Under the pieces are notes generated by a model. It was not told the DNA's origin. It ran no database searches and was given only the letters and a program-made list of their open reading frames with translations. The position numbers were made by a program, and so were the translations under genes. From an uncultured Woeseiaceae bacterium (lineage in GTDB: Bacteria; Pseudomonadota; Gammaproteobacteria; Steroidobacterales; Woeseiaceae): a DNA stretch of 64,000 nucleotides. Positions 26,937 through 45,144 of this stretch are shown piece by piece; the first letter of the stretch is position 1, and the number at the start of each line of letters is the position of its first letter. The stretch covers positions 62,636 to 126,635 of the forward strand of contig CAMYJB010000011.1 of assembly GCA_947258565.1 (NCBI GenBank), in the 5' to 3' direction.

Positions 26937-27932
26937 TCAGCGGCGGCTCGCTTCCGAATGGAAAAACTTGTACTTGAACAGCGCCTCGGGGCCGTGACAG
27001 TCGGCGCAGAGCGGCTCCACGAACTCGGGCATCCTCAGGTGCAGGCCCTTCAGATCACCCGGACGGCCCTCGGCAACCTCCCGGTGCACGTCGTGGCAGG
27101 TTCCGCAGCCGATGTTGCCCACACGCGCCTGCCGCCCATGCTTGTCGAAGACTGGCATCTCGCCCGGAGTGTTCGAGAATATCGTGCCTCGAATGTCCTG
27201 CGACCAGGCAACGATCTGCGGCGGATGCTCGCCCGGGTTCGGCGCATCGTCGTGGCAGCTCCGGCAAAGACGGTCCATCGGCAGCTCCGCCTCGCCGAGA
27301 TCGCGCGCCCACATCAATGGCCAGTCCGAGCCGTGTGACGCGTGGCAATAGCCGCAGGTGCCGCGCTTCTCGAAGTCCTTGTTGCGGCGGCCGCCCTTAT
27401 CATGCGCGCTGCCTTCGATGGCCAGTTGCTCGGTATGGCAGGCCGTGCAGATGTTGCCGCCGCCGGCGGACTGGCGCATGAACGGCTCGACCTTGGTCGG
27501 CGCGCCTTCGGCTTCGCTGAGGTGCGCGGAATGGCAGGTCCCACAGTACACGTTGCCGTCCTCGTTGAGTGGGAATTCCGGCGAGCCGTCCAGCTCCGAT
27601 ATCGTCATGTCGGCCGGTGGCGGCATCCCCAGGCGGTGTCCGCGGTAGCCGCCTTCCCACATCGCCCGTGAATCCATGACGTAACCGTCATGACAGGAGA
27701 AACACATGGCCGGGGAGCTGGCGACATCCTGCTTGCCCGTCGGTAACTCGGGGAATTCCTCGACCGGCGTCACCGGGTTGGCGCGGCGGCCCTTGAAGTC
27801 ACGGATCTTCATGGGGTGGCAGGCAGCGCAGTCGAACTGGTCTGCGGCCTCTTCGGCAAGCGTGACCTCCTGGGATGGCAGCAACACGAGGATCAGGCCC
27901 GCGGCAGCGAAGAATGCGCGAAGTGCGTTCAT
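26937..27932 (-). CDS. Octaheme c-type cytochrome
   Basis: Signal peptide plus 8 CXXCH (CAACH, CFSCH, CGTCH, CTACH, CGYCH, CRSCH, CGTCH, CADCH). Confidence 0.93.
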   Translation of the reverse strand: MNALRAFFAAAGLILVLLPSQEVTLAEEAADQFDCAACHPMKIRDFKGRRANPVTPVEEFPELPTGKQDVASSPAMCFSCHDGYVMDSRAMWEGGYRGHRLGMPPPADMTISELDGSPEFPLNEDGNVYCGTCHSAHLSEAEGAPTKVEPFMRQSAGGGNICTACHTEQLAIEGSAHDKGGRRNKDFEKRGTCGYCHASHGSDWPLMWARDLGEAELPMDRLCRSCHDDAPNPGEHPPQIVAWSQDIRGTIFSNTPGEMPVFDKHGRQARVGNIGCGTCHDVHREVAEGRPGDLKGLHLRMPEFVEPLCADCHGPEALFKYKFFHSEASRR

Positions 27933-28876
27933 TCCGCGGCCTCATCTTCCGGTGCGGGCGGTGGAGGCGCCTGCGGCTCGAGGATCGCGACCTTGCCCGC
28001 CAGCATCTGGGTAACGTAGAGGCGTTCGCCTGCGGCCGCGAGACCGACCGGGGTATCGTATACGGTCGCCGTGCCGTCATCGCCAATAACGTACGCGAAC
28101 TCACCATCCGGGTTGAAGACCTGCACGACACCGAGGAAGCTGTCCGAGACGTAGATGTTGCCCACATCGTCGACGGCGACACCCTTGGGACGGTAGAAAT
28201 TGCCGGCCTTGCCGCCGAGCTTGCCGATCGTGAGCAGGTGGTTGCCTGCCGCATCAAACTTCTGAACGCGGGCATTGATCACGTCAACGACGTAGACGTT
28301 GCCTGCTGCGTCGATGTCGATGGTCGCGGGATAAATGAACTGGCCATCTTCCTCGCCTTCCCCACCCCAGGCGCGCAGGAACTCGCCCTTGTTCGAGAAG
28401 ACGACGACCTGGTGCGTGTTGTTGGAGGTAATGAAGAGTTCCCGGCCCCTGGGCCCGACCGCGACGTCGACAGGAACGACGCTCTCGCTTTCTGCCTCGA
28501 GCTCGAACGCCCTTCGCGGGCTTCCCTTGGCATCGAACATGACGATGCGTTCGTTGCCTTTGTCCGCAATCCAGACTTCGCCCTTGGCACTTACGCCGAT
28601 GCCCAGCGGATTCATGAGCTGGCCCTCTTCATCGCCCATCATGCCGAGCGAGGTAATGCGAGTGCCGGACGCGTCGAAGACCGCGACCTGGTGGTTGCCG
28701 CTGTCGACGACGTAGGTCTGGCCGTCGCTCGCGATCGCGACGTCGGAGGGCATCAGCAACAGTTCGAGTTGGGCCGCCTGGTTCGGCGCGCCCGTCGGCA
28801 TGTCGGCGGCCAAAACGATGGACGATAGCAGCAGGCCAGTTAACGCCAGGCCATTGATGAGTTGTTTACTTTTCAT
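27929..28876 (-). CDS. NHL-repeat (six-bladed beta-propeller) protein
   Basis: Repeated RPKGVAVDDVGNIYVSDSFLGVVQVF-type blades; signal peptide; overlaps neighbouring starts/stops. Confidence 0.9.
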   Translation of the reverse strand: MKSKQLINGLALTGLLLSSIVLAADMPTGAPNQAAQLELLLMPSDVAIASDGQTYVVDSGNHQVAVFDASGTRITSLGMMGDEEGQLMNPLGIGVSAKGEVWIADKGNERIVMFDAKGSPRRAFELEAESESVVPVDVAVGPRGRELFITSNNTHQVVVFSNKGEFLRAWGGEGEEDGQFIYPATIDIDAAGNVYVVDVINARVQKFDAAGNHLLTIGKLGGKAGNFYRPKGVAVDDVGNIYVSDSFLGVVQVFNPDGEFAYVIGDDGTATVYDTPVGLAAAGERLYVTQMLAGKVAILEPQAPPPPAPEDEAAE

Positions 28877-29750
28877 GGCACGCCTGGCAGATATCGTCTG
28901 CCCTCAGCCTGTGCTCGGGTTGCTGAGCAACCGGGCCGCCTTCGAATTCGTGGGGGTCATGGCAGGTGCCGCAATAGATCTCTCCGTTATAAGGGCTTAG
29001 CGGCAGACTCGCGCCCGTTGCCGCCTGCCATCTTTCGATCTTCCCAAATACGTCAACCGATGGTCTTACAAGGTGTACCCAGCCCTCTGCTTGCGCACCA
29101 AAGGACACCCCTGTCGGGTGCGGCTTCACGTCGTGACAGCCGCGGCACATGTCATTGAGGTCGAGCTGCATATTGAACGATACGCGGATTGCTTTGGTGT
29201 CGTCAGGTTCCGGAACACCGATATGACACAACGGGCAAGTGGCTTTCGGCGGATCACCGGCCGCACCATTGTGAGGATTCAGGGCAACGTATTCCGATTC
29301 TCCGTGGCACTTGAAGCAATAATCCTCGGTGTAGTGTGAGGTCCGGTCGCGCAAGAATCCACGATTTTGCAGCCTGAAATGCGGTTTCGGTCGCTCGCAC
29401 TGGTGGACAAGGTCGTGACAGGTCGAGCAGACGACCTCTCCATCCTTAAGCGACGACTGAAGGCTCTCCGCGATCGTCAAACTGCCCGCCGAAATGCCCG
29501 ATGAGTGCCTGCAAGACAGGGCGTCGCCACGACTGCCGTGACAGCTTTCGCACAACGCTTCCGCGTCGGCGGCCTTGAGATTGACAACGCCTTTGGCTGG
29601 AGCCGCCCCCACATGGCAAGCCTCGCATCCGCTGGCAGTCCAGTGCGGACTTGCATTGGCATCGTCCTGTGCCGACACAGGGAAAGACAAGAAAATCGCA
29701 GCGACCAGCGCAGTCCCCGCTAGTCCGAGATGTCTAGTTCTGATAATCAA
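28866..29750 (-). CDS. Octaheme c-type cytochrome
   Basis: 8 CXXCH (CEACH, CESCH, CSTCH, CFKCH, CPLCH, CRGCH, CGTCH, CQACH), signal peptide. Confidence 0.92.
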   Translation of the reverse strand: MIIRTRHLGLAGTALVAAIFLSFPVSAQDDANASPHWTASGCEACHVGAAPAKGVVNLKAADAEALCESCHGSRGDALSCRHSSGISAGSLTIAESLQSSLKDGEVVCSTCHDLVHQCERPKPHFRLQNRGFLRDRTSHYTEDYCFKCHGESEYVALNPHNGAAGDPPKATCPLCHIGVPEPDDTKAIRVSFNMQLDLNDMCRGCHDVKPHPTGVSFGAQAEGWVHLVRPSVDVFGKIERWQAATGASLPLSPYNGEIYCGTCHDPHEFEGGPVAQQPEHRLRADDICQACHEK

Positions 29751-31401
29751 AATTGTTATGGTCCTCGCCGTGGCATTCGAGATAGCAGGTTCCCGCGAAC
29801 TGGCCCTGGTCCTCGAAGCGCAGATCGCCGTTGCCGCGCGGGAATACGATCGTTGTGTCGAAGTTGATCAGGTTCGAATTATTTGTCGAGTTACCCTGCG
29901 TCGAACTGATGCCGTGCGGGTCGTGACAAATGTGTTTGTCGTGCTCCTTGAAGCTGTCATCGCCCAGGATGCTGGATTCACTGTGGCAGTTGTAGCACAG
30001 CTGGTACGCCGCGGTGCTCTCCTGCGTGTTGTCAGCAGTCTCGTACCGGTCTACCAGTATCGGCTCGAAGGTCGAGCCATGCGGCCCTTCAGGCCCGTTG
30101 CCTCCGGCACTGCTCGCATTATTCGAATTGTGGCAATCGCCGCACGTGATGACCGACTGCTCTGTCAACGGGGGGATCAGGCTCGGCACGTTGTTATTGC
30201 TCCCGGGAGAACCAATCGGATGGAACGACGGGTTCGTCGCCTGAATCTCGAGGCGGACATTCGTCTGTTCGTGCTGCCGAGGCGTACGGGATGCGGGCCT
30301 GCCGGGACTGTCGCCGTGGCAGCGCAGGCAAATTTCGTAGGTGTTGTTGGCTGCGCTGACCTCGGTACCGGCCAGGTTAACACCGCGTACGTTGGCCGGC
30401 GTGTCGCCAGGCAGACGCGCCGAGTTTGTCGCATGCGCATTGTGGCAATCCGAGCACTCCACGTGGCGAGTGTCGACGACGGCCGGCTCAGCCGGGTCAT
30501 GCACCCCCGTGTTATCCGCAATACCGTGCCGGAAAGCCTTGTTGAATTCTGCTTCGATATCGTCCGCCGCAACATTGCCGTTGTGGCACGCGAGGCAGTT
30601 ATCTTCTTCAATCGCATGGTTCAGAAGACGCGGACCACCTGTCGCAAGGTGTGGCTGATGGCAACTGCCGCACGCATTCTCACTCACCGTCACCAGGTTG
30701 CTGTTCGGCCAGGGATCGGGTGGCTGGTTGTTCCAGGTCGCACCCGACTGGCTATGCGAGGTCTGCGACCAGCCGGTCTTCAGGTGGCATGTCGTGCACA
30801 GCTGCGAGCCCACGTTCGGCATGATGAGAAAGCCGCCGAAGTCATTGCTATGGGCGTCGTGGCAGGCGGTGCACTGCAACTGGTTACCGCCTTCGAGTAT
30901 GACGCTTGACGGCAGCGCGGAAGGTGCCTGCAGCTCGCCGTTCTGGGATGCGAGCGAGCCCGTGTAGGCAAACGAGACAGGATGGTCGTGCGTGAGATCG
31001 GTGCCGATCAGGCCTTCCCCAGGGGGCATCGTCGTTACGCCACCCGACATCGCAATATCGTTCGGCTGGCTGACGATCTCGCCCAGTGCGATCGTGCCAT
31101 CGTGACAGCTCAGGCACATCAGCGAATGCCCGGTCGGCTGCCCGGGTTGCGCCACCGCGGTAGAACTCGTATACGGCACGTAGGCTGCGGAAGGCGTATT
31201 TCGATTCCACTGGGGCGTTGTCGAACTCGAGGAATGCGAGGTGTGGCAGAAGATGCAGACCCGGTCCTCTGCGGCCGCCGTCACGTTCCCCGGGCCCGCC
31301 ACCGACAGATTGTGCGACGTATTGACGATGCTGCCGGCCTGCGCAGAGACGATGGCCATGATTCCCATGAGCAATGACAATAACCGCAGGACCTGCATCA
31401 T
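29734..31401 (-). CDS. Multiheme c-type cytochrome (10 CXXCH + one CX3CH + one KHICH)
   Basis: CIFCH, CLSCH, CTACH, CTTCH, CGSCH, CLACH, CSDCH, CLRCH, CGDCH, CYNCH, then KHICH and CYLECH; signal peptide. Confidence 0.93.
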   Translation of the reverse strand: MMQVLRLLSLLMGIMAIVSAQAGSIVNTSHNLSVAGPGNVTAAAEDRVCIFCHTSHSSSSTTPQWNRNTPSAAYVPYTSSTAVAQPGQPTGHSLMCLSCHDGTIALGEIVSQPNDIAMSGGVTTMPPGEGLIGTDLTHDHPVSFAYTGSLASQNGELQAPSALPSSVILEGGNQLQCTACHDAHSNDFGGFLIMPNVGSQLCTTCHLKTGWSQTSHSQSGATWNNQPPDPWPNSNLVTVSENACGSCHQPHLATGGPRLLNHAIEEDNCLACHNGNVAADDIEAEFNKAFRHGIADNTGVHDPAEPAVVDTRHVECSDCHNAHATNSARLPGDTPANVRGVNLAGTEVSAANNTYEICLRCHGDSPGRPASRTPRQHEQTNVRLEIQATNPSFHPIGSPGSNNNVPSLIPPLTEQSVITCGDCHNSNNASSAGGNGPEGPHGSTFEPILVDRYETADNTQESTAAYQLCYNCHSESSILGDDSFKEHDKHICHDPHGISSTQGNSTNNSNLINFDTTIVFPRGNGDLRFEDQGQFAGTCYLECHGEDHNNFDYQN

Positions 31402-32405
31402 GTCTCCGTCCCGATATAGCGCAATACCTGGATGCGACGATTGTACGAGTCCGCAACAAAAATCATGTTGTCTCGTGTCACATGGATGCCATTCGGCAGC
31501 CAGAATTCTCCAGGCCCCTGGCCCTGCTCGCCGAAAGCCAGCAGCAGCATACCTTGACGGTCGAATATCTGTACACCGTTGAACAATGCGTCGACGACGT
31601 AGATGTGGCCCAGTGCATCGACCGCCACGCCCTTGGGACGCGCGAAGTCGCCAACCTGGTCGCCGTTCTTGCCGAAGGCATGCAGGAATTCCCCATCCGT
31701 CGCAAATTGCTGGATGCGGAAGTTAAGAGAGTCGGTGACGATGAGTTCGCCGTCCCCGGGAAGCCACAGGTAGGTCGGGAAATTGAACTGGCCCGGTTCC
31801 GTTCCGCGCTCCCCGAAGCCGAGAACTTGTTCGCCTTCGGGGGTGAAGGCCTTGATGGATTGCGCGCCAGTGTCCGTTACGAACAGCACGCCCGCGTCTT
31901 CGTCCCAGGCGACGCCGGTCGGCTGCTGCAGGGCCTCGCCCGTATCCAGGCGCTGCAAATACTTGTCACCTGCGCCGATTGTGAAAATGCCGCGTAATAG
32001 CGAGTCGGCGACGTACACTCGGCCGGCCGGCGTGATCGCAAGACCGATCGGCGAACCCAGGGATTCATCGCGCGACACCCGGAGACAATCGTAACGGCTG
32101 CGTTCGAGATCGAAGCGGTGGACGCAACGCGCGTCGGGGTCGGCGACATAGATCATATCGCCGCCTGTTGTCGCCACGACGTCCATCGGTCGCACCATGG
32201 CGTTTTTCGGCGCGCCAGCGACGACGCTGACCAGGCGACCCCAGAAGCCGGGCCGGATGCCCAGGTCATCCGGCCGGGCAATTGCCTGCACGAATGCGAT
32301 TCGCGGCGGGTCCGGCGGTTCCGGCCAGATGCGTCCTTCGCTGGCGAACGGAACCACGTCGGGACCGCTCGCACACGCGTACATCGTGCCGAGGAGCACG
32401 ATCAT
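31398..32405 (-). CDS. NHL-repeat beta-propeller lipoprotein-like protein (start uncertain, 32405-32435)
   Basis: IVLLGTMYACASGP signal; FARPKGVAVDALGHIYVVDALFNGVQIF. Confidence 0.87.
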   Translation of the reverse strand: MIVLLGTMYACASGPDVVPFASEGRIWPEPPDPPRIAFVQAIARPDDLGIRPGFWGRLVSVVAGAPKNAMVRPMDVVATTGGDMIYVADPDARCVHRFDLERSRYDCLRVSRDESLGSPIGLAITPAGRVYVADSLLRGIFTIGAGDKYLQRLDTGEALQQPTGVAWDEDAGVLFVTDTGAQSIKAFTPEGEQVLGFGERGTEPGQFNFPTYLWLPGDGELIVTDSLNFRIQQFATDGEFLHAFGKNGDQVGDFARPKGVAVDALGHIYVVDALFNGVQIFDRQGMLLLAFGEQGQGPGEFWLPNGIHVTRDNMIFVADSYNRRIQVLRYIGTET

Positions 32406-32437
32406 GCAGAGGAATGTCGCACGCCTCCGGTCCACGA

Positions 32438-34453
32438 CTAGAACACCCTCGTCAGCTGAGCCGTCACGGTAACATTGTTCCACTCGGATACGCCCAGCTC
32501 GTCCTCTGAAATCGTCGCACGCATTTCGAACCGCATCTGGCGATAACTCCATTGCCAGTTCAACCGGTGCCGGAATTGCTTGCGGGGCAGGCTGCCACCC
32601 GTATCGTCGAGCAGGAACGCATCGTAGGAAAGGTAGCTTCTCCGCAGTACGCGCCCGCGCAACCCGATTCGATACGTAACCTGGCTGATGTCCTCGTTGG
32701 AGTTCTCGTAGTCGGTCTCGTTCAGGCCAGCCGCCAGCGTCAGTGCCAGCGTACCGCCCAGGCTCGTCGTAAAGCTGACGTCCAGCTGATCGCTGACAAA
32801 AGGCGAAGTCTCCAGGTCCTGTCGCAAATGGCGGTACTGTGCGTCTAGCGTCCAGCCGTCCAGGAACTGGTTGGTCGTACCGATTCCGAACTCCACTATC
32901 TCGCCGTCATTCAGCGGATTCGTCAGCTCGCCTTGCCTAATCTTTGTGTCCTGTATGTCGTAGCGAACGTGCGCCCTGAATGTCCGCAGGAAATCGGCGC
33001 TCAGCGCAATACCCGAACCGTAGGTATCGAATTCCGCTGTGCCGGACGTGCTGTAGCTGTAGTCGACGAGCACGGTCTCGCCGTCCGTGATGCTGCTGTT
33101 TACCAGCCTCTGTACCGAGGTCACGCTACCGGTCTCGATCAGGCGGTAGTCGAGTCCTTCCACGTAGGTCTGCGTCTTGTCAGCGTTGCGGACCACGACC
33201 GAACCCGGCACGACAAACTCGTTGCGAAGATCGACCGGGTTGGTACCGATGAGAATCAGCGGCTCGTCGAATACGTCGATCTCATCGGCCGTTGATTCCT
33301 GGTCGTTTCGCTCCGCTCTTGCGGATCCCGATATGCCGAACCCTCCGAATCCCGTTTCGCGAGAATATGTGGCAGCGCCCCTCAGCGAATTCCGATCGCG
33401 CGTGAATCCCGTTTGATCAACCGTCGAGTGGCCGAGCGACGCACGCGCGAAGGTGCTCTCGGTCAATTGTTCAGCCGCCCCGATTTCCAGGTCGGTGAAA
33501 TCCTGGCGGGTCGAATCCCGTTTCGATGTCACGTCGCGAAGATTTAAGAATGCGTGCCCGTCGCCGTCATACTGCCAGTGGACGTTGCCGTTATACGTAC
33601 GGTCGTCCAGGGTCGAGACGATCGTCGTCACGTTTTCCTGGTCCATTTGCCGCAGGCGTTGCGAGATTCTGACCTGCTCGTCGGCACCAAAAACATTGTT
33701 GGCGCGTACTTCGGCGATCTCCTGGTCGAGTTCGGAACGTACGATCGGCAAACCCGCGCTGCCGCTGGCCGACTCCTGTTCGAGTTTGTCGAACTGGAAT
33801 GTGATGTTGTCCGAATTTCTGTATGTCGAATCCAGCGCGAAACTCTTCGTTTCGGCAGACGTGTCGACGACGGAACCAAGCCCCGACCCGTCGGCCTCCT
33901 GGCGAGTTATTGCGTACCGCAATGTCGTCCTGTCCCTCAACAACTGGGTAACGTGGCCCCTCACTCCGTAGGCGTCGTTCTGCACCAGGAAGCGGCCGGA
34001 CCGGCTGGTCGTCACCGACGGGTGAGTCCGCTCGTAGTAGACCGAAACCGGATAATTCTTCAGGTCCAGGATGTTCAGGCGGCCGAGAAAATTGAACAGC
34101 ACGTCATTGTTGCTGGCCTCGTCGACATTCGTATCGAATTGTTGCTGCACGAAGACGGGGCCGCCGCCGAGATCCATGTTCAGGAAACCGGGGTGGTAGA
34201 CGAAGCTCTTGGTCAGTACGAAGAGCTCCTGCTCCCAGCTCGACTGCTGTTCGAACGATTTTTCCAGGGAGGCCCCACGTTCACGGTCGTCGAACAGGTA
34301 GCCGACGCGCACATGCCCGGTTACGTCGAGGAGACCGAACGGCTTGATATCGTCGACTTCGTGGTATTCGGCGGCGCACACAGCCGGCATCAGCAGGATC
34401 AGTGCGAACTTCCTGGCTGCTTCGGCCCACCCTTCTGGATTCCTTTCTCTCAA
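32438..34453 (-). CDS. Outer-membrane beta-barrel, porin of an electron-conduit-like cluster (TTG start proposed)
   Basis: Signal KFALILLMPAVCAAEYHEV; long alternating hydrophobic/polar strands; ends LGVSEWNNVTVTAQLTRVF; the longer ORF to 34612 overlaps the upstream gene. Confidence 0.78.
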   Translation of the reverse strand: MRERNPEGWAEAARKFALILLMPAVCAAEYHEVDDIKPFGLLDVTGHVRVGYLFDDRERGASLEKSFEQQSSWEQELFVLTKSFVYHPGFLNMDLGGGPVFVQQQFDTNVDEASNNDVLFNFLGRLNILDLKNYPVSVYYERTHPSVTTSRSGRFLVQNDAYGVRGHVTQLLRDRTTLRYAITRQEADGSGLGSVVDTSAETKSFALDSTYRNSDNITFQFDKLEQESASGSAGLPIVRSELDQEIAEVRANNVFGADEQVRISQRLRQMDQENVTTIVSTLDDRTYNGNVHWQYDGDGHAFLNLRDVTSKRDSTRQDFTDLEIGAAEQLTESTFARASLGHSTVDQTGFTRDRNSLRGAATYSRETGFGGFGISGSARAERNDQESTADEIDVFDEPLILIGTNPVDLRNEFVVPGSVVVRNADKTQTYVEGLDYRLIETGSVTSVQRLVNSSITDGETVLVDYSYSTSGTAEFDTYGSGIALSADFLRTFRAHVRYDIQDTKIRQGELTNPLNDGEIVEFGIGTTNQFLDGWTLDAQYRHLRQDLETSPFVSDQLDVSFTTSLGGTLALTLAAGLNETDYENSNEDISQVTYRIGLRGRVLRRSYLSYDAFLLDDTGGSLPRKQFRHRLNWQWSYRQMRFEMRATISEDELGVSEWNNVTVTAQLTRVF

Positions 34454-34493
34454 AGCGCCGCCCCTACAAGTCCTCAACGCCGGGGTTCGGATG

Positions 34494-35582
34494 TCACTCG
34501 CGCCGCGAGCCGTAACCGAATACCGTGACGTTGTTGTTGCCGAACTGGCTCGCGACGAGGACCAGGTACTCGACGTCGAAATCCGGTGCGATGTACTGCT
34601 CGAAATAGGCAACGTTGTCGTAGTCGATCTTGATGGCCGTTGGGAGGTTGATACTGTCCCTGCCGCCGCCCTGGGCGCCGAAGAACATCAGCGCACCGCC
34701 GTCCTGTGCAAATACCTGGATGTTCTCGAACGCGGCGTCAGTCACAAAGACATGCCCCTCGCGGTCTACCGATATTCCCTTCGGGCGTGAAAACGTGCCC
34801 GGCACCATACCTGCCTCCCCGAATTCACGGATGAACTCGCCCTCCAGCGTGAACTGCTGCACCCGGAAATTGATGGTATCGACGACGTAAAGCGTATCGT
34901 CCGCCGCAACCGACAGGTTCGTCGGGTTATTGAACTCGCCCGGCGCCGATCCGAGACCGCCGAAGCTCAGCAAGGTCGCCCCAGTGGACTTGTCGAGCGC
35001 GTGCACCTTGTGTTGCATCAGGTCCGTGACGTACAGCCTGTCCCCGACGATCGCGACGTCGACCGGCTTGAACTGGCCCGGTTCGCCATAAGCCCTGAGA
35101 AAACGGTTTTGGCCGTCGTAGACCAGCACCTGTTCACGACCGGTATCGGTGACATAGCGGGTACCGTCGTCGTCGATCGTTATGTTGATGGGCTTCTTGA
35201 GCGTTCCCCCACCCTTCGGGCGCACGACCGCAGATTTGCGATTCGCGAGATCGAAGACCGCCCACCCGGGACCACGCGCGTCAACAACGTAAATGGCGCC
35301 CTCGTGAATTGCGACACCATAGGGTTTCTCGACCAGGTGATTCTCCTTGTCCTCGCCGCCGAACACGAAATCCCTGAAACTGCTCTTGCCGGACGACACG
35401 TCCAGTGCCGAGGAGAAACTTGCCAGAAACTGAAAGCGGGGAAGATCGGGCGGCAGCGGATAGAACAGGTACTCCTCCGCTTCATCGCCCGAGTCCGCGC
35501 GCAGCACGCCGATCGGAACTGCGAAAAGAACTACGGCCGCCAGCACAGCGGGCGAGAAAATTGCCAGGCTATGTCGATTCAT
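34494..35582 (-). CDS. NHL-repeat beta-propeller protein
   Basis: FSRPKGISVDREGHVFVTDAAFENIQVF blades; signal peptide. Confidence 0.9.
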   Translation of the reverse strand: MNRHSLAIFSPAVLAAVVLFAVPIGVLRADSGDEAEEYLFYPLPPDLPRFQFLASFSSALDVSSGKSSFRDFVFGGEDKENHLVEKPYGVAIHEGAIYVVDARGPGWAVFDLANRKSAVVRPKGGGTLKKPINITIDDDGTRYVTDTGREQVLVYDGQNRFLRAYGEPGQFKPVDVAIVGDRLYVTDLMQHKVHALDKSTGATLLSFGGLGSAPGEFNNPTNLSVAADDTLYVVDTINFRVQQFTLEGEFIREFGEAGMVPGTFSRPKGISVDREGHVFVTDAAFENIQVFAQDGGALMFFGAQGGGRDSINLPTAIKIDYDNVAYFEQYIAPDFDVEYLVLVASQFGNNNVTVFGYGSRRE

Positions 35583-35623
35583 CCTCTGCCTCCCGGGCTA
35601 TTAAGTCCAAGGCACCGAAAATC

Positions 35624-35662
35624 AAAAACGCCGCCACCGGCCGCCGCGCCGATGGCAGCGTT
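35624..35662 (-). terminator. Strong intrinsic terminator downstream of the tetraheme cytochrome
   Basis: Minus strand AACGCTGCCATCGGC-GCGGCG-GCCGGTGGCGGCGTT, 15 consecutive pairs (two G-U), followed by TTTGATTTT. Confidence 0.88.
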
Positions 35663-35677
35663 GATGTTACTCGAGCG

Positions 35678-36298
35678 TTACTTGTTATGGCACGTCAGGC
35701 ACATTGCGCTCGCGCTATTGGCCAGGCGCAGGAACGGCGCAATTTGGTCATCATGTACGTCATGACATGACGCGCATTCCAGGCTGCCTGCAAACAGCAT
35801 GTCTGCATCGATCGTGCTGCCGAGCCCCGAATTTGCGGTCGCCGGGTCGGCCAGACCGCCGTCCGTTGTCGCGAGCGCCGTATCGTAGACGAACGAGATC
35901 GGGTGATCGTCACTCAGGTCGGTGCCGATAAGTGCGTTGCCGGTAATAGTGTTGCCTCCGGTGCCTGCATTACCGCCGAAAGCATCTAAAGCGACCGTGC
36001 CATCGTGGCATGACAGGCAGAGCCTCGATGCACCGGCAGGCTGGCCGGACGGTCCGCCGTCGAACGTCGGCGAAGCGTACACGGTAAACGTCGCCCCGGT
36101 AACTTCGTGGTTCCAGAGCGGTGCTCCCGATACTGTCGTGTCTGCGTTGTGAGGCGTGTGGCAGACGATACAGATTTGGCCGCCCGTGTTCGGCTCAAGG
36201 CTTAAATCATGATCCGTACCCACAATCGTCTGCGCCGATGCCATTCCGCTCAAGAACAGGCCAGCTACCGCTGTCAAACCTGCTAATTTCTTAAACAT
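35678..36298 (-). CDS. Tetraheme c-type cytochrome (OmcE-like arrangement)
   Basis: Signal peptide; CIVCHTPHN, CLSCHDGT, CASCHDVHD, CLTCHNK; ends directly after fourth haem motif. Confidence 0.92.
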   Translation of the reverse strand: MFKKLAGLTAVAGLFLSGMASAQTIVGTDHDLSLEPNTGGQICIVCHTPHNADTTVSGAPLWNHEVTGATFTVYASPTFDGGPSGQPAGASRLCLSCHDGTVALDAFGGNAGTGGNTITGNALIGTDLSDDHPISFVYDTALATTDGGLADPATANSGLGSTIDADMLFAGSLECASCHDVHDDQIAPFLRLANSASAMCLTCHNK

Positions 36299-36649
36299 TT
36301 CCTACTCCTCGAATTTTCCCTTGCGCAAAGTACATATCCGGAGATTCGGCCTTTAGATCAGGACTGCTTCGCGAGTCCCCGGAATAAATGTGTCCCCAAA
36401 AATCTTGGCCTGACCTTTTGGAACAATTCGATTATCGAAGAGTCAACAAACCCTATTAATCGTGCGAGTCGCGTACTCTATTGGGGGAACTACCTATAAG
36501 ACGAGGGTGGTCACGAAACACGGGATTGTGGTAAGGTGTTGGAGAATTCTGTGACATTTTGCAAAGACCGCATTTCCTACGCCTGACCCTTGCGTTCTTA
36601 TGTAAACCCCCGTCGCAGAAAACCGCGATTTAAGCGCTAATTCGCTGAG

Positions 36650-36674
36650 AAAACCCCGCCCCCTGCGGGGTTTT
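36650..36674 (+). terminator. GC-rich hairpin with flanking A/T tracts (possibly bidirectional)
   Basis: AAAACCCCGC-CCCCT-GCGGGGTTTT then CTTTTTT on plus strand. Confidence 0.75.
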
Positions 36675-36733
36675 CTTTTTTGGACTGGGTGACGAGCTGC
36701 ACCAGCATTTCCTGCTACCACAAAAAACCCCGC

Positions 36734-38953
36734 CTAGTTGACAATATCCACATCCAGGGTGCGGGTGTTGTCGGCCGTATCCGTCTCGCCTGTCACCGTG
36801 TCTGCGGTCGCTGTAAACGTCCGCAGGCCGCAACCGTCATTCCTGTCGTAAGTCCAGTTGTAGACCAGGTCGGCCGTCGCCCCGGATGCCAGGCTGGCGA
36901 CCGTTTGCGGGTCGAAGTTCTGGTCGTCCGGGTGGTCGGACGCCAGCGCCACGGAGAAGTTGGACTCTGTCGCGGTGCCCTGGTTTTCGACCGTCACCGT
37001 TATCAGGATATCTCGCAGCCGCGAGCCGCAGGTGGCGATCGGCGACGGCGGATTGACGGACATGGCGATAACCGCCAGGTTGTTCACCGGACCCGCTGCA
37101 ACCACGTCGGCCGTCGTGCTCGCCGAGTTGTCGGCCGTGTTTGTCTCGCCCGGTACCGTGTCCGCCGTTGCCGTCAGCGTGTGCGTCCCCACGGTGGTGG
37201 ACGCGTTGGTGTTCCACGTAAAGTTCAGCGTGGTGACGTTACCCGCTGCGAGGGCCCCGCTGCTCAGTGTCTGGATCGTGCCATCCTGGTCGGATACCAG
37301 GGTCACATTGAACATTTCCGTAGCACCACCGTTGTTGGTCACCTGGACGTCCACGCCGGCAGATGTACCCTGCGTGACCGTTGGCGGCGCCGTGACGGAG
37401 TCCACGGTTACGTCGTGCGTGGTCGCCGGGATTACCTCGGATGTCGTGCTTGCCGAATTGTCCGCGGTATCGGTCTCACCCGGCACCGTGTCGGCCGTCG
37501 CCGTCAGCGTATGCACGACCTCGGTCGCACCCGTCGTATCCCAGGTGAAATTCAGTGTGGTCGACGCGCCGATTCCAAGAGGTCCGCTGCTCAGTGTCTG
37601 GATCGTGCCGTCGAGGTCCGATACCAGGGTAACGTTGAACGTTTCCGTATAGCCGCCCTGGTTGGCAATGTCGACGGACACTGTCGCGCTGGTGTTCACC
37701 TCGACCTGGGGTGGCGCCGTTACGGCCGTCACTGCGACGTCGTGGATATCCAGCACCGCGACCGTAACCGTGTTGCCGGTGAGCGTGTTGTTGGCGACGT
37801 TGACCTCGGCGATCACCGGCTGTGCCTCGGCAGACACTGTGTGGAGGCCATCGGTCGTCGTTGTCCAGACGAAGACGGCCTGCCCTGTGCCGCCGGCCGG
37901 CGGCACGTCGCCAACGGCGACAGTGCCGAGCAGGCGGTCGATGCTCGAATAGAACTTGACCCTCACCACCTCGGTCGCATCGCCGAGGTTGGTGAAGTCG
38001 GCCGTTATCGTCACGGTCTGTCCCGAGTTGACCGATATAGGCGCCGCCACCACGCTGTCCATCCGGACATCGCGGTTGGGCATGGTCCAGGGCGTGCAGT
38101 CAGCGCCCTTGTCGAAACAGCCGTCGTGCAGGTGGCAATCCGTGCACGTGCGGTCCTGGTTGTGTAGCGAGCAGTCGGCTGCGTCGTCGTAGCCGCAGGC
38201 ATTCTTGGACACGACCGTATGACACATGTGGCAGATCGCGTCGTGCCCACCACCCGCGGTATCACTCCACTCCGTAATCGTCTCCCAGGTCGCGTCCGCA
38301 GGGCTCATTCCGTCTTCGTCGTGATCCGCCCAGCCATGGATGGTCACGTTCGAATCGCTCGCATCACGGTTCTCGAAGATGACGTGCCGCTTGCGCGTCA
38401 CGTAACAGTCGTTCTCCACCGTGTCGTCACAGGATTGCGTGACTGTCGTATTGCGGTCGGGAATGCCGTCCTTGTTCATGTCCCGTTCCTTCGTGATGAT
38501 GATCGCGTAAGGCGTTTCACCATCCGGGTCCTCACGCCCGACCATCTTGGTGTTGACACCCACCGGCCAGCCACCGGGCCGGGTGTCGGTACCGTCGCGA
38601 CCGGCCGCGTTGTCGTCCGCCAAGTGGTTCGGGTCGTTCAGGCGCCAGTTCGGCATGTTGTCATGCACTTCGTGACAGTCGGTGCAGGTGCTGTAGTGCT
38701 CCGGATAACTGCCTTCGCCCCGATGCGGTTGCACCGCGGCAGTGGTTCCGTTTGCCGTGAGGTGGCATCCCATGCACAGCACCTCGATATTGACGGGGTC
38801 GCTGCGGGGCACAAAGCCGGTGTCAGACCCGTGCAATGAATGGCAGTAGCCGCACTCATGGGTGGGCAACAGGGCGTGCGCGTTGTCGGACGCCAGCAAC
38901 AAGACGATGGCCAGGAGCAAGGTCGAGGTCAACGATTTCATGAAAGCGCTCAT
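36734..38953 (-). CDS. Pentaheme cytochrome with four C-terminal CARDB/Ig-like repeats
   Basis: CGYCH, CMGCH, CTDCH, CHMCH, CTDCH in N-terminal third; four about 105-aa repeats containing LTATADTVPGETDTADNSAS-like ends. Confidence 0.9.
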   Translation of the reverse strand: MSAFMKSLTSTLLLAIVLLLASDNAHALLPTHECGYCHSLHGSDTGFVPRSDPVNIEVLCMGCHLTANGTTAAVQPHRGEGSYPEHYSTCTDCHEVHDNMPNWRLNDPNHLADDNAAGRDGTDTRPGGWPVGVNTKMVGREDPDGETPYAIIITKERDMNKDGIPDRNTTVTQSCDDTVENDCYVTRKRHVIFENRDASDSNVTIHGWADHDEDGMSPADATWETITEWSDTAGGGHDAICHMCHTVVSKNACGYDDAADCSLHNQDRTCTDCHLHDGCFDKGADCTPWTMPNRDVRMDSVVAAPISVNSGQTVTITADFTNLGDATEVVRVKFYSSIDRLLGTVAVGDVPPAGGTGQAVFVWTTTTDGLHTVSAEAQPVIAEVNVANNTLTGNTVTVAVLDIHDVAVTAVTAPPQVEVNTSATVSVDIANQGGYTETFNVTLVSDLDGTIQTLSSGPLGIGASTTLNFTWDTTGATEVVHTLTATADTVPGETDTADNSASTTSEVIPATTHDVTVDSVTAPPTVTQGTSAGVDVQVTNNGGATEMFNVTLVSDQDGTIQTLSSGALAAGNVTTLNFTWNTNASTTVGTHTLTATADTVPGETNTADNSASTTADVVAAGPVNNLAVIAMSVNPPSPIATCGSRLRDILITVTVENQGTATESNFSVALASDHPDDQNFDPQTVASLASGATADLVYNWTYDRNDGCGLRTFTATADTVTGETDTADNTRTLDVDIVN
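37080..37690. repeat. Internal tandem duplication of a CARDB-domain coding unit (about 327 bp offset)
   Basis: TGCTCAGTGTCTGGATCGTGCC at 37261 recurs at 37588 with extended flanking similarity. Confidence 0.85.
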
Positions 38954-39981
38954 TGCACGAGATCCTCCATGTTGAATGCCTCGATCCGGGTCAGCATCGT
39001 GTTGGCGACCAGCGTTCGTCCTGTTGCAGCATCAAACAGCACCCCGGTTGGCAACAGGAGTTGCCCCGGTGCCGTCCCCTTGCCGCCAAAGACGCCGAGC
39101 GAGCCGAACGTGTTGGGAGAAACCTCTTCGAACACGAGGACTTCATGGCGGAAACTGTCGGCCAGGTAAACGCGCCCTGCGTCATCCACGGCCACGCCCT
39201 GCGCACGGGAGAAATTCTGGCCGGCGTTCCCGGTGTTGCCGTCGATCGCAGCCAGAAACGCGCCGTCGTAATCGTAAACCTGGATGGCGGAGCCGAGCGA
39301 ACAACCCATCCAGGTGCATGTCTCGATGCCGTCGTCGCTGACGAAGATGCGCTGGCCGACCCGGTCCAGGGCGATGCCCTGCGGCTTGCCCAGCGGCGCC
39401 GCACTGCCCGGCCCGCCGATGGTACGCACGAGATTGCCGTCAGCGTCGAGCACGAGGATCGCTTTCTCAACCTTGCTGGCGACGAACAACAGACCCTGCC
39501 CTTCGTCCGCAACCATGGCCGAGGGCTGCCCGACCGGCGCCGCCGTCAGGCTGGGCGAGGTCTGCACCCATTGTGATTTGCTGTTTATGCTGGACGAATC
39601 CTTGATGCCTTTCTTCTTGGGCTTGCCGTAGCCGAAGACCTGGATGCGGCCGGTGTATTCCTCGCCGACGTACAGGCGGTTGTTCATCCAGGCAACGCTC
39701 AGAGGTTTGCCAGCGGTCGCCTGCGTTTCATCGGTATAGATCGGCAATGCGTCCAGCGCCTGCATGGAAAGCGGATCCACGATGACCACTTTCCTGCCGA
39801 CATAGTCGCCTACGACGAGCCCCAGCGGGCTCTCGGCCATGCGAAGCGGCCCCACGAACTCGAGGGTCTGAGCAAAAGAAACTGGCGACGCCAGGCCCGT
39901 TACCACGGCAAGCGCACACAGCATCGCTGCCATCCGTGCGCCTGAGAATCCAGAAAGTCGGAAGATTGAAATTCGAAACAT
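38950..39981 (-). CDS. NHL-repeat beta-propeller protein (start probably 39981)
   Basis: MFRISIFRLSGFSGARMAAMLCALAVVTGLASPVSFAQ signal; RAQGVAVDDAGRVYLADSFRHEVLVF. Confidence 0.88.
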   Translation of the reverse strand: MFRISIFRLSGFSGARMAAMLCALAVVTGLASPVSFAQTLEFVGPLRMAESPLGLVVGDYVGRKVVIVDPLSMQALDALPIYTDETQATAGKPLSVAWMNNRLYVGEEYTGRIQVFGYGKPKKKGIKDSSSINSKSQWVQTSPSLTAAPVGQPSAMVADEGQGLLFVASKVEKAILVLDADGNLVRTIGGPGSAAPLGKPQGIALDRVGQRIFVSDDGIETCTWMGCSLGSAIQVYDYDGAFLAAIDGNTGNAGQNFSRAQGVAVDDAGRVYLADSFRHEVLVFEEVSPNTFGSLGVFGGKGTAPGQLLLPTGVLFDAATGRTLVANTMLTRIEAFNMEDLVQ

Positions 39982-40314
39982 CTCGGCTTGATCCCCATTG
40001 TTGGCAATCCCGACGGGGTCCGTCCAACGGGCCCCGGGGAGCCTGAAGCGACAGCCGCTGACAGCCGCTGTCTCCTGACCATTCTTTTGTGAATCATGGA
40101 GTCGCACAAGGGTGGTTTATACGGATAACCACGCGCATCGCAGCAGGTGTGTCCCGGTATAAGCTATTGATTTATTATCGATTCCAGGCTCGATCGTGCA
40201 ATCGATGAAGAGAGCGTTAACCCCCGTGCAATCAATGCTCTTGTGACAAGGGTCTCAGTCCCTCCGGGCGAGCAGGTCGCCGCTAGCGGGAACTGTTAAC
40301 TGCGCGAGCGCGGC

Positions 40315-41229: not shown

Positions 41230-43197
41230 ATGAGAAAACTGCTTTGCCTGTCCGCATCCGCACTCCTGGTCGGCGCCTGCGGGCAACCCGCCGAGGAGGC
41301 AGCCGAGGAAAGCGCGGCGCCGGCGCCGGTCGCGGAGGAAACTGCGCCGCCCGTCGCCGAGGTGACCAAGAGTCCCGGAGTCGTCAACAAGCTGTACTGG
41401 GGCGACACGCACCTGCACACGTCGTATTCACCCGACGCCTACCTGATGCAGAACCGCTCGGCGGATCCGGATACGGCCTATCGCTACGCGAAAGGCTACC
41501 CGGTCGTGCACCCGTACCACAAGGCACGTATCGAGATCGGTACGCCACTCGACTTCCTCGTAGTCTCGGACCACGGCGAGTTCATGGGTGTCGTGCCGAT
41601 GGTGCTGCAGGGCGATCCGCGCGTTGCCAATACGGAGACCGGAATACGGTATGCGCAGATGGCCGCCGAGGGTCGCGAGATCGAGGTCTTCGGCGAACTG
41701 ATCGCACAGATTAATGGCGTCGTCCCGGTGGACCAGAACCTGAACAACCCCGAGATCAATGCGTCGGTCTGGGGTGAGATCATGGACGCCGCAGACCGCC
41801 ACAACGAGCCGGGCAAGTTCACGGCCTTCATGGGCTGGGAGTGGTCGTCGACGCCACAGGGCCAGAACCTGCATCGCGTGCTGATCATGAAAGGCAGCAA
41901 GGTGAACGGTGAGAAGTTCATCCCGTACACGAGCCTGGACAGCAATAAGCCGGAGGACCTCTGGGCCTGGCTGGAGAAGACCTCCGCCGAGTCCGGCGCG
42001 GACTTCCTCGCGATCCCGCACAACTCGAACATCTCGGGCGGCCTGATGTTCCCGCTCGTGGACAGCAACGGCGCAGGTGTGGACCAGGCTTATTCCAAGC
42101 TGCGCATGCGTTGGGAGCCGGTCGTGGAGATGACGCAGATCAAGGGCGACTCTGAGACCCATCCGCGGCTGTCACCGAACGACGAGTTCGCCGATTACGA
42201 GACCTACGAGCATCTCATCGCGGTCGAGGGCGCCGAGGCCCCAAGCATGTTCAGCGATGGCTTCCTCGGCACGCTGAGCCCCGAGGACAGGGCGGTTATC
42301 GAATCGCAGGAGAAGCGCATCGTCGAAAATGGCGACTATGCGCGCACCGCATTGCTGCGCGGGCTCGTGCTCGACAATCGCGGCCGCGGCAACCCGTACA
42401 AGTTTGGCATGATCGGCTCCACGGACTCGCACACGGCAATGGCCTCGGCCGAGGAAGACAATTTCCACGGCAAGATGGCGATCGACTCGACGCCGGGCAC
42501 CAAGAAAGAAGACATCATTCCCGGCACGCCGGGCTGGGACATGGGCGCTGCAGGTCTCGCCGCCGTGTGGGCACCCGAGAACACGCGTGATGCCATCTTC
42601 GACGCGATGAAACGCAAGGAGGTCTATGCGACGACGGGCCCGCGCATCAAGCTGCGCTTCTTCGGCGGCTTCGATTACAACGCCAATGATGCGTCGCTCA
42701 ACAACCTGGCGGCAGCCGGCTACGACAAGGGCGTGCCAATGGGCGGCGACCTCTCAGCCGCGCCCGACGGCAAAGCGCCGTCGTTCCTGATCCGTGCCGT
42801 GAAGGACCCGGTCGGCGCCAACCTCGACCGCATCCAGGTCGTCAAGGGCTGGCTGGACGACGAGGGCATGCCGCAGGAAAAGGTCTTCAATGTAGCCATG
42901 GCGGACGGCCGCGTCGCAGGCAGTGACGGCAAGGCGCCGCCGGTCGGCAATACCGTGGATATCAGCACGGGCAACTACACCAACAGCATCGGAGATCCGG
43001 AACTGACCGTGGTCTGGAGCGACCCGGAATTCGACCCTGCGAAGGCATCGTTCTACTACGTGCGCGTACTGCAGATCCCGACACCGCGCCATACCCTGTT
43101 CGACGCGATCGCGCTCGGCATCCCGGTCGAGGAGACCGGCAATCCGGCGACGATCCAGGAGCGCGCGTACTCATCGCCGATCTGGTACACGCCTTGA
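41230..43197 (+). CDS. DUF3604 domain protein (PHP-like), lipoprotein
   Basis: SASALLVGACGQPAEE lipobox; LYWGDTHLHTSYSPDAYLM; GSTDSHTAMASAEE. Confidence 0.9.
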   Translation: MRKLLCLSASALLVGACGQPAEEAAEESAAPAPVAEETAPPVAEVTKSPGVVNKLYWGDTHLHTSYSPDAYLMQNRSADPDTAYRYAKGYPVVHPYHKARIEIGTPLDFLVVSDHGEFMGVVPMVLQGDPRVANTETGIRYAQMAAEGREIEVFGELIAQINGVVPVDQNLNNPEINASVWGEIMDAADRHNEPGKFTAFMGWEWSSTPQGQNLHRVLIMKGSKVNGEKFIPYTSLDSNKPEDLWAWLEKTSAESGADFLAIPHNSNISGGLMFPLVDSNGAGVDQAYSKLRMRWEPVVEMTQIKGDSETHPRLSPNDEFADYETYEHLIAVEGAEAPSMFSDGFLGTLSPEDRAVIESQEKRIVENGDYARTALLRGLVLDNRGRGNPYKFGMIGSTDSHTAMASAEEDNFHGKMAIDSTPGTKKEDIIPGTPGWDMGAAGLAAVWAPENTRDAIFDAMKRKEVYATTGPRIKLRFFGGFDYNANDASLNNLAAAGYDKGVPMGGDLSAAPDGKAPSFLIRAVKDPVGANLDRIQVVKGWLDDEGMPQEKVFNVAMADGRVAGSDGKAPPVGNTVDISTGNYTNSIGDPELTVVWSDPEFDPAKASFYYVRVLQIPTPRHTLFDAIALGIPVEETGNPATIQERAYSSPIWYTP

Positions 43198-43243
43198 GTC
43201 AAGCTCTGTTGGCGACTCGGCCGCTGTGGACTGGTAAGGCGTC

Positions 43244-44134
43244 TTGAAGAAATTCCTGCGGGAACCCCTGGTGCACTTCCTGGCGATAGGCATTGGCCTG
43301 TTCGTTCTTTTCGACCTGGTCGCGCCGGAGGAGAGCAATCTCGACAGCAAGACGATCGTCGTCGATCGCGATGCGCTGCTCACGTTCGTCCAGTTCCGCT
43401 CGAAGGCCTTCAACCCGGAAGTCGCAGCGGCGAGGCTCGACGCCCTGGGCGATGCCGAGTTGTCGATGTTGATCGACGACTACGTGCGCGAAGAGGCCTT
43501 GCACCGGGAAGCCCTGGCGCTGGGCATGGACCAGAACGACTACGTCATCAAGCAGCGGCTGATCCAGTCGCTGCAGTTCATTACCAACGGCTTCGTGTCG
43601 GCGGCGGTCGATGTATCCGACGAAGAGATCGCGGAGTATTACGAAGCGAACCGGGACGACTATTACGTCGATCCCTATGTGACGTTTACGCACGTATATT
43701 TCAGCAACGACCGCCACGGCCGGGAGCAGGCACGGCAGCTTGCAAAGGCGAAGCTCGCCGAACTCAACGACGCGAGCGTGCCGTTTTCGGAAAGCACGCG
43801 TCACGGCGAGCGCTTCCTGTACAACGTCAACTACGTCGAACGAACCGAGGATTTTGTCGCCAGCCACTTCGGCAGGGCGATGGCGGCAGCGGTGTTCGAG
43901 CTCGAGCCGGATAGCAGGCAATGGTACGGCCCGTTCGAATCGGCCTACGGGCATCACCTGGTGATGCTGACAAAGCGGACGGACGGCCTTTACCCTCCGC
44001 TCGGGGAAATCGCGGACAGCGTCCGCGAAGACGCATTGCGCATCAAGCTCGATGAGCAGAACGATCGCGCCGTGCAGGCGATCGTGGATACCTACGAGAT
44101 TCGCATGGGCGACGTACGCGGTACGGGCGGATGA
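43244..44134 (+). CDS. Peptidyl-prolyl cis-trans isomerase (parvulin/PpiC-type), membrane anchored, TTG start
   Basis: KKFLREPLVHFLAIGIGLFVLFDL; VTFTHVYFS...WYGPFESAYGHHLVMLTKRTDG. Confidence 0.82.
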   Translation: MKKFLREPLVHFLAIGIGLFVLFDLVAPEESNLDSKTIVVDRDALLTFVQFRSKAFNPEVAAARLDALGDAELSMLIDDYVREEALHREALALGMDQNDYVIKQRLIQSLQFITNGFVSAAVDVSDEEIAEYYEANRDDYYVDPYVTFTHVYFSNDRHGREQARQLAKAKLAELNDASVPFSESTRHGERFLYNVNYVERTEDFVASHFGRAMAAAVFELEPDSRQWYGPFESAYGHHLVMLTKRTDGLYPPLGEIADSVREDALRIKLDEQNDRAVQAIVDTYEIRMGDVRGTGG

Positions 44135-45144
44135 AATTGCGTGGTCTCGCAACGGCCTGCCTGTTGTTGTGTGCTGCCCTTGCGCAGGCGCATGACTCGC
44201 GGCCCAACTTCGTCGAAATCATCGAGACGGAACCGAACGTCTTCAGTGTGCAATGGAAAATCCCTGCGACCGTGCCCGATGCGGCGCTGCCGACGATACG
44301 CATGCCCGAGAGCTGCACGACGGACGCGCGCCTCGCGATGCAACAATCGAGCGGTGCTTACCAGGGGCGGCTGGTCTACAACTGCCCGGAGGGGCTGTCC
44401 GGCAAGGAGGTCAGGATCGAGTTCCCGGTCATCAACCCGTCGCTGTCTTCGCTGTTCCAGGTGCGGCTCGCGAACGGGGAGCAGTACGTCAAGATTCTCA
44501 AGCCCGAAGAGAGCAGCTGGACGGTGCCGGAGGCAGAGAACAAGCTCGCCGTCGCGGGCCAGTACACCCTGCTCGGTATCGAGCACATCTGGATCGGCAT
44601 CGATCACCTGCTGTTCGTCACCTGCCTGCTGCTGATTGCGCGCACGCCGCGGAAGGTCCTCATAACGATTACCGGGTTCACGGTCGCACATTCGATAACG
44701 CTTGCACTCGCGGCACTCGATGTCATCCGTATTCCTACGCCGCCGGTAGAAGCGGCGATCGCCCTGAGCGTGGTATTTCTCGCCTGGGAGATCGTGAAGA
44801 ACGACGAGTCGCAGCTCACCTATCGCTACCCGGTTGCGGTCTCGATGTCTTTCGGCCTGCTGCACGGCCTCGGGTTCGCCGCTGTCCTGCGCGACATCGG
44901 GCTGCCGCAGACCGAGCTGCCGACGGCGCTGCTGTTCTTTAACATCGGCGTCGAGATCGGGCAGATCCTGTTCGTGCTGGCGCTGGTCGCGGTATTCCTG
45001 CTGGTGCGCCCCGTGCTCAGGAAGGTGCTCGAGAGCGACGACCATGATGTGCACTGGAACTGGATCACGACGCCTGCCAGCTACGTGATCGGCGGGATCG
45101 CGAGTTACTGGCTGATCGATCGCATCTCGGGATTCTGGGTATGA
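44131..45144 (+). CDS. HupE/UreJ-like membrane protein
   Basis: GIEHIWIGIDHLLFVTCLLLIA...GFTVAHSITLALA...GLLHGLGFAAVLRDIGLP. Confidence 0.88.
   Translation: MKLRGLATACLLLCAALAQAHDSRPNFVEIIETEPNVFSVQWKIPATVPDAALPTIRMPESCTTDARLAMQQSSGAYQGRLVYNCPEGLSGKEVRIEFPVINPSLSSLFQVRLANGEQYVKILKPEESSWTVPEAENKLAVAGQYTLLGIEHIWIGIDHLLFVTCLLLIARTPRKVLITITGFTVAHSITLALAALDVIRIPTPPVEAAIALSVVFLAWEIVKNDESQLTYRYPVAVSMSFGLLHGLGFAAVLRDIGLPQTELPTALLFFNIGVEIGQILFVLALVAVFLLVRPVLRKVLESDDHDVHWNWITTPASYVIGGIASYWLIDRISGFWV

Follow-up and report, generated by a model that had tools for sequence, protein, structure and literature searches.

A predicted extracellular electron-transfer locus of the Uet/OmcE kind in a Woeseiaceae genome, with a candidate joint between nanowire and outer-membrane barrel

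How are cytochrome nanowires anchored on the bacterial cell and joined to it electrically? Their secretion, anchoring, and electron feeding are unresolved according to a recent review (PMC12307469). Here, we analyzed a locus that raises this question, in a 64,000-nt stretch of DNA (the window) from an uncultured Woeseiaceae bacterium (contig CAMYJB010000011.1). The locus consists of ten minus-strand genes at 26937-40107, which we call A to J in the order of transcription. A preliminary description, made from the sequence alone, had proposed that it could be a conduit plus nanowire locus. We find that it is probably an extracellular electron-transfer (EET) module of the Uet/OmcE kind, in which the tetrahaem cytochrome C would be the wire, the barrel E its passage through the outer membrane, and the large cytochrome G the joint between them. 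Uet (undecahaem electron transfer) is described in PMC10734462 from cathode-oxidising Tenderiales, and also from Gallionella, and is characterized there by NHL propellers together with an OmcE-type tetrahaem cytochrome, a barrel, and an undecahaem cytochrome.

We began with the gene calls. All ten open reading frames (ORFs) were found again in the order previously described, as were the 35 CXXCH motifs counted in them, which fall into B, C, G, H, and J as 5, 4, 10, 8, and 8. Shuffled versions of the same proteins held 0.16 such motifs on average and at most 2, and in the whole 64-kb window these five were the only reading frames of more than 60 amino acids with two or more of them. Pfam recognized NHL repeats well over the cut-off in the four presumed propellers (A, D, F, and I), CARDB in B, and doubled-CXXCH or cytochrome c7 domains in the other cytochromes. 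By inspection, export signals are apparent on all ten proteins, although the start of F is uncertain. The description of the genes as mostly overlapping was right only in part. Some overlaps are present, but there are gaps of 435 nt between B and C and of 95 nt between C and D, the latter containing a terminator-like hairpin, and the long D/E overlap is probably a start-codon artefact, the likely start of E being a TTG at 34453, 40 nt past D. The E/F overlap, too, may come from a wrongly placed start, as that of F is uncertain. The central genes and the elements associated with them are the following:

36431..36459, minus strand: weak sigma-70-like promoter match upstream of C (promoter scan)
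35678..36298, minus strand: C, tetrahaem cytochrome of the OmcE/UetA type, candidate filament subunit (match to the OmcE structure)
35627..35662, minus strand: terminator-like hairpin of 15 pairs with a T tail, directly 3' of C
34494..35582, minus strand: D, NHL propeller with a cleavable signal (PF01436)
32438..34453, minus strand: E, outer-membrane beta-barrel of 671 amino acids (AlphaFold2 model, Foldseek)
33044..33283, minus strand: inserted non-barrel beta domain of E, about amino acids 391-470 (secondary structure of the model)
31398..32552, minus strand: F, NHL propeller, probable lipoprotein, start codon uncertain (PF01436, E 1e-24)
29734..31401, minus strand: G, UetJ-type cytochrome with 10 CXXCH and 1 CX3CH (motif count)
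30778..31332, minus strand: N-terminal OmcE-like tetrahaem domain of G, amino acids 24-208 (PDB 7tfs, E 9e-30)
29926..29931, minus strand: site of a 27-nt in-frame deletion in G (alignment of relatives)
29737..30777, minus strand: C-terminal haem module of G, amino acids 209-555 (motifs, alignment)
29770..29787, minus strand: conserved C-terminal CX3CH of G, amino acid 539 (alignment of relatives)

Could C form a wire? The previously noted resemblance of this protein to OmcE was borne out. C matched the PDB chains 7tfs, which is the OmcE filament (E 2.3e-30), and 9yuq (E 2.8e-22), and in the alignment it retained all eight haem ligands of OmcE: the four CXXCH motifs and the four distal histidines, including the N-terminal one. 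It is thus a tetrahaem cytochrome with the ligand pattern of OmcE-type filaments, whose subunits share a haem through the histidine of a neighbouring subunit (PMC9473688, PMC12954529). The eight ligand positions are 97-100% conserved in a 65-sequence alignment of C-type and G-type domains. Through the terminator-like hairpin that follows its gene, C probably reaches higher levels than the other proteins. Of 20 loci, 7 have a hairpin with a T-run behind C; the corresponding counts are 0 of 19 behind D and 0 of 16 behind F. A hand calculation puts the probability of such a split by chance at about 4e-4, for loci that are related to one another and for D/E and F/G gaps that are short. This pattern fits C as the major subunit, produced in excess of its assembly partners. 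The number of sigma-70-like promoter matches across the region was not above chance.

We then asked whether E is a barrel. Its AlphaFold model, built on a 26-sequence alignment, had a pLDDT of 88.1 and a pTM of 0.74, in agreement with the outer-membrane barrel that had been proposed, and when we counted by hand from the listed strands of the model there were about 28 transmembrane strands. E had no match in a Pfam scan. In Foldseek, its matches were outer-membrane barrels, with MtrB (6r2q_B) having one of the highest TM-scores among the matches listed (0.43/0.44). The positions that are best conserved in the family lie mostly in the inserted domain, with the consensus motif Y.EG.DY.V...G..T. 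The propellers D and F lie on either side of E; comparison of N-termini indicates that both look like lipoproteins in most relatives, with lipoboxes in the relatives of F.

How might such a wire be joined to the barrel? The first 208 residues of G matched the same two PDB chains as C (7tfs and 9yuq), and this N-terminal domain keeps all eight haem ligands of OmcE. The two halves of G occur as separate 4-haem and 7-haem genes in three loci (L031, L034, and L100). A tree separated OmcE, UetA-like proteins, and C from G, UetJ-like proteins, and split G (support 100/94), with most C proteins forming their own clade beside OmcE; L092_C, a long-branched Geobacterales tetrahaem protein, grouped on the G side, where its placement is unsure. 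In the G family, 11 CXXCH motifs are accompanied by a single C-terminal CX3CH. The earlier count of 10(+2) haems was therefore correct in substance: one of the two extra haems is the conserved CX3CH, and the 27-nt deletion has destroyed the site of the other. In the window's G, nine residues are missing in front of CHDPHG, among them the first cysteine of the 11th CXXCH. The missing segment is present in every listed relative that covers the site, including loci from the same family, and the deletion may be genuine or an artefact of the assembly.

Because of its domain structure and its invariable association with C and E, G suggests itself as the joint. More tentatively, and as a possibility that we rate below even, G may be a subunit dedicated to forming the base or the cap, in which an anciently duplicated wire subunit has been joined to a conduit cytochrome, and it would plug an OmcE-type nanowire straight into an outer-membrane barrel in Uet and in at least seven phyla. 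A conserved pair of genes, for a wire subunit and for a cytochrome with a wire-like domain, clustered with a barrel, makes a concrete candidate for the joint; if it is true, G as base or cap would explain both the anchoring of wires and their electrical connection to the cell.

The preliminary description had called for a check of gene order in relatives, which we ran. A single scan recovered full-length relatives of G with 39-62% identity from Pseudomonadota, Desulfobacterota, Nitrospirota, Calditrichota, Planctomycetota, Sumerlaeota, and Verrucomicrobiota; with a further scan included, the range was 39-63%. Most loci that are long enough to show it, from several of these phyla, have C-D-E-F-G on one strand in this order from upstream to downstream. 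Exceptions were Calditrichota, where the C-D-E part is downstream of G, and Oryzomonas, where C is downstream. A second, osc-like NHL cluster was sought in Oryzomonas, and only the window-type module was found. In most non-proteobacterial loci, D and E are separated by a gene for a pentahaem lipoprotein that has an FFxGVP-like motif (for example, L036 6147-6848, with an FFTGVP-like motif); the gammaproteobacterial loci lack this gene. The octahaem gene H is also present in other gammaproteobacterial loci. When the phylum was sampled, G was found in 1 of 399 genomes, the window's own; thus, the system is rare in the phylum.

These observations suggest the following model. C would be exported and would polymerise outside the cell as an insulated wire of the OmcE type, its output raised above that of the other genes through the hairpin. 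The large barrel E would house part of the haem chain in the outer membrane. There, G would cap or anchor the wire, with its N-terminal domain packed on the final subunit of the C filament and the haems of its C-terminal part extending the chain into E. The propellers D and F would keep the assembly in place at the barrel or act as its chaperones, electrons would cross the periplasm by way of H and J, and B, with its CARDB domains, A, and I would be accessory parts at the surface or in the periplasm. Of the conduit plus nanowire that had been proposed, the barrel, the exported multihaem proteins, the homology to OmcE, and the conserved gene order stand, the novelty of the NHL arrangement does not, and the function itself is a prediction.

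Several observations weigh against this model. Sequence similarity says little about the function of multihaem cytochromes (PMC12977616). AlphaFold2 modelled G with low confidence (pLDDT 55.6) and gave no usable fold or contacts, and the broken haem site could weaken a continuous chain in the window's G. With regard to Uet, Pfam found no peptidyl-prolyl isomerase (PPIase) of the UetB type at 26937-40107, the nearest PPIase being at 43244-44134 on the opposite strand, and in BLAST, E showed no similarity to the barrel of the host's own Uet cluster. Finally, G is present in only 7 of 107 genomes of the window's family (E 1e-40), so the system is an accessory trait.

It is also conceivable, though unlikely, that the locus encodes a porin-cytochrome conduit without a wire, with C as a soluble or surface tetrahaem cytochrome and G as an exposed terminal cytochrome like MtrC. 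Sequence alone does not tell whether a cytochrome forms filaments (PMC12977616), and just two OmcE-family chains were found among solved structures (7tfs and 9yuq). However, C retains every haem ligand of OmcE, down to the N-terminal histidine, and the hairpin behind it suggests excess expression. Far less probable is a periplasmic respiratory complex for nitrite, tetrathionate, or a similar substrate, to which the propellers would be incidental. H and J are indeed octahaem proteins, and NHL proteins are widespread in diverse contexts. However, when we checked for membership in periplasmic respiratory families, a result that the preliminary description had named as grounds for abandoning its proposal, the NrfB, tetrathionate-type octahaem, and DmsE families (TIGR03146, TIGR04315, and TIGR03508) all remained far below cut-off, and a barrel of about 28 strands lies within the conserved core.

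The direction of electron flow is a separate matter that overlaps our preferred model of wire, joint, and barrel. The chance is close to even that the same apparatus serves mainly for electron uptake by an autotroph, through oxidation of iron, sulfide minerals, or a cathode. The host genome encodes two haem-copper oxidases and a RuBisCO large subunit, next to LysR-type, small-subunit-like, and AAA ATPase-like ORFs, and Uet, described in cathode-oxidising Tenderiales and found also in Gallionella (PMC10734462), offers a precedent. However, conduits can work in both directions, the G family is also found in Geobacterales, which are known metal reducers, and the host has a probable MtrCAB, a system that in sediment Woeseiaceae was read as iron reduction (PMC12175321).

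The remaining genes of the locus flank this core:

38950..40107, minus strand: A, NHL propeller, exported, 385 amino acids from a GTG (PF01436, E 1.8e-11; signal peptide by inspection)
36734..38953, minus strand: B, pentahaem cytochrome with C-terminal CARDB domains (5 CXXCH; PF07705, E 2e-27, four stretches)
28866..29750, minus strand: H, octahaem cytochrome (8 CXXCH)
27929..28876, minus strand: I, NHL propeller (PF01436, E 2e-26; 71% identity in L029)
26937..27932, minus strand: J, octahaem cytochrome (8 CXXCH; 69% identity in L029)

Among the loci compared, A and B were seen in only two, both from Woeseiaceae (L001 and L029), where the orthologues of A have 53-57% identity and the orthologue ORFs of B are 419-423 amino acids long. 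The in-frame GTG start of A is doubtful; because of the position of the signal peptide, an internal start is probably the true one. In B, the CXXCH motifs span amino acids 34-274 and CARDB about 290-739. We considered B as the equivalent of the conserved pentahaem lipoprotein and did not accept it, since there was only a weak local match (5e-4). H is 35-52% identical to octahaem proteins downstream of G in other Gammaproteobacteria. J aligns repeatedly along proteins with 23-24 CXXCH made of J-like repeats (L002 12636-15680, L004 6472-9372, and L005 1-2940), which in L002 and L004 adjoin an I-type NHL gene; these are possibly long periplasmic or surface wires that replace J. A plus-strand group at 41230-45144 adjoins the locus; a PPIC-type isomerase is encoded there together with a long ORF and a membrane protein, which by eye are DUF3604-like and HupE/UreJ-like, respectively. 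The isomerase might be recruited to the system.

The host genome (G000; 3.48 Mb, 99.7% complete) has a Uet cluster of its own, at 26000-45900 of contig C14 (L043 3316-19309). Its parts are the published Uet set: NHL proteins, a tetrahaem cytochrome, a PPIase, a barrel-like protein, four trihaem cytochromes, and an undecahaem cytochrome. It is preceded by a dihaem cytochrome and by two propeller-like proteins in which WVGTS/WFGT motifs are repeated. C, D, F, and G are paralogues of its tetrahaem protein, two NHL proteins, and undecahaem protein; D is 33% identical to its first NHL protein (E 2e-54), F 33% to its UetI-like NHL protein (E 1e-51), and G 29% to its UetJ-like protein (E 3e-50). On contig C47 (L104 3-3444), the end of a multihaem gene precedes genes for an MtrA-like decahaem cytochrome and MtrB (PF11854, E 7e-120), and these are probably MtrCAB. 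Our reading of the sequence also identified an NrfH-like cytochrome. One genome thus appears to encode three distinct EET modules: the window locus, Uet, and the probable MtrCAB. PMC12175321 credited Woeseiaceae with mtrCAB only, and here a predicted wire-type system stands beside Uet and a probable MtrCAB.

With which known system, then, does the locus belong? The alternation with NHL propellers had been thought to match nothing known. This did not hold: Uet has such NHL proteins (PMC10734462), and OmcE-type genes of Geobacterales are flanked by them. Like Uet, the window locus has a tetrahaem cytochrome (C, UetA type), an outer-membrane barrel, NHL proteins (D and F, UetHI type), and an undecahaem-type cytochrome (G, UetJ type). 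In contrast to Uet, it has no UetDEG-type trihaem c7 cytochromes, with the octahaem proteins H and J instead, and it adds the CARDB pentahaem protein B and two more NHL proteins. Because the isomerase and the trihaem proteins are absent and the barrel cannot be aligned by BLAST, we call the locus a variant and not Uet proper; it appears to be a divergent and widely shared variant of Uet-like systems. In its predicted way of working it resembles both Uet and systems that combine filaments with conduits (PMC10734462, PMC10553843). Membership in MtrCAB/PioAB was rejected, as the cut-offs of PF11854, TIGR03508 (the MtrA decahaem family), and TIGR03507 were not reached in the window locus and E had no match to PF11854, in line with the earlier view that this is not a classical Mtr operon. 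The likeness to MtrCAB lies in a large outer-membrane barrel, with a TM-score to MtrB of 0.43-0.44, that has multihaem partners. OmcS is a hexahaem cytochrome without sequence similarity to OmcE (PMC9473688); no OmcS-type hexahaem is present in the locus, and C and G match OmcE rather than OmcS. A further comparison is with the conserved OmcE locus of Geobacterales, which in L094, L095, L096, L097, and L101 contains a 9-haem cytochrome, an 8-haem cytochrome, an OmcE-type tetrahaem gene between two NHL genes, and a protein of about 770 amino acids that had no Pfam match in the single copy examined. It differs in that no G adjoins the OmcE-type gene. The OmcS nanowire secretion cluster (osc) likewise includes propellers. 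The osc cluster and the OetABI conduit of Desulfobacterota (PMC10553843, PMC12977616; osc compared by description) resemble the locus in clustering a filament cytochrome, a barrel, and a cytochrome lipoprotein, and in the published model cytochrome filaments work in concert with porin-cytochrome conduits (PMC10553843).

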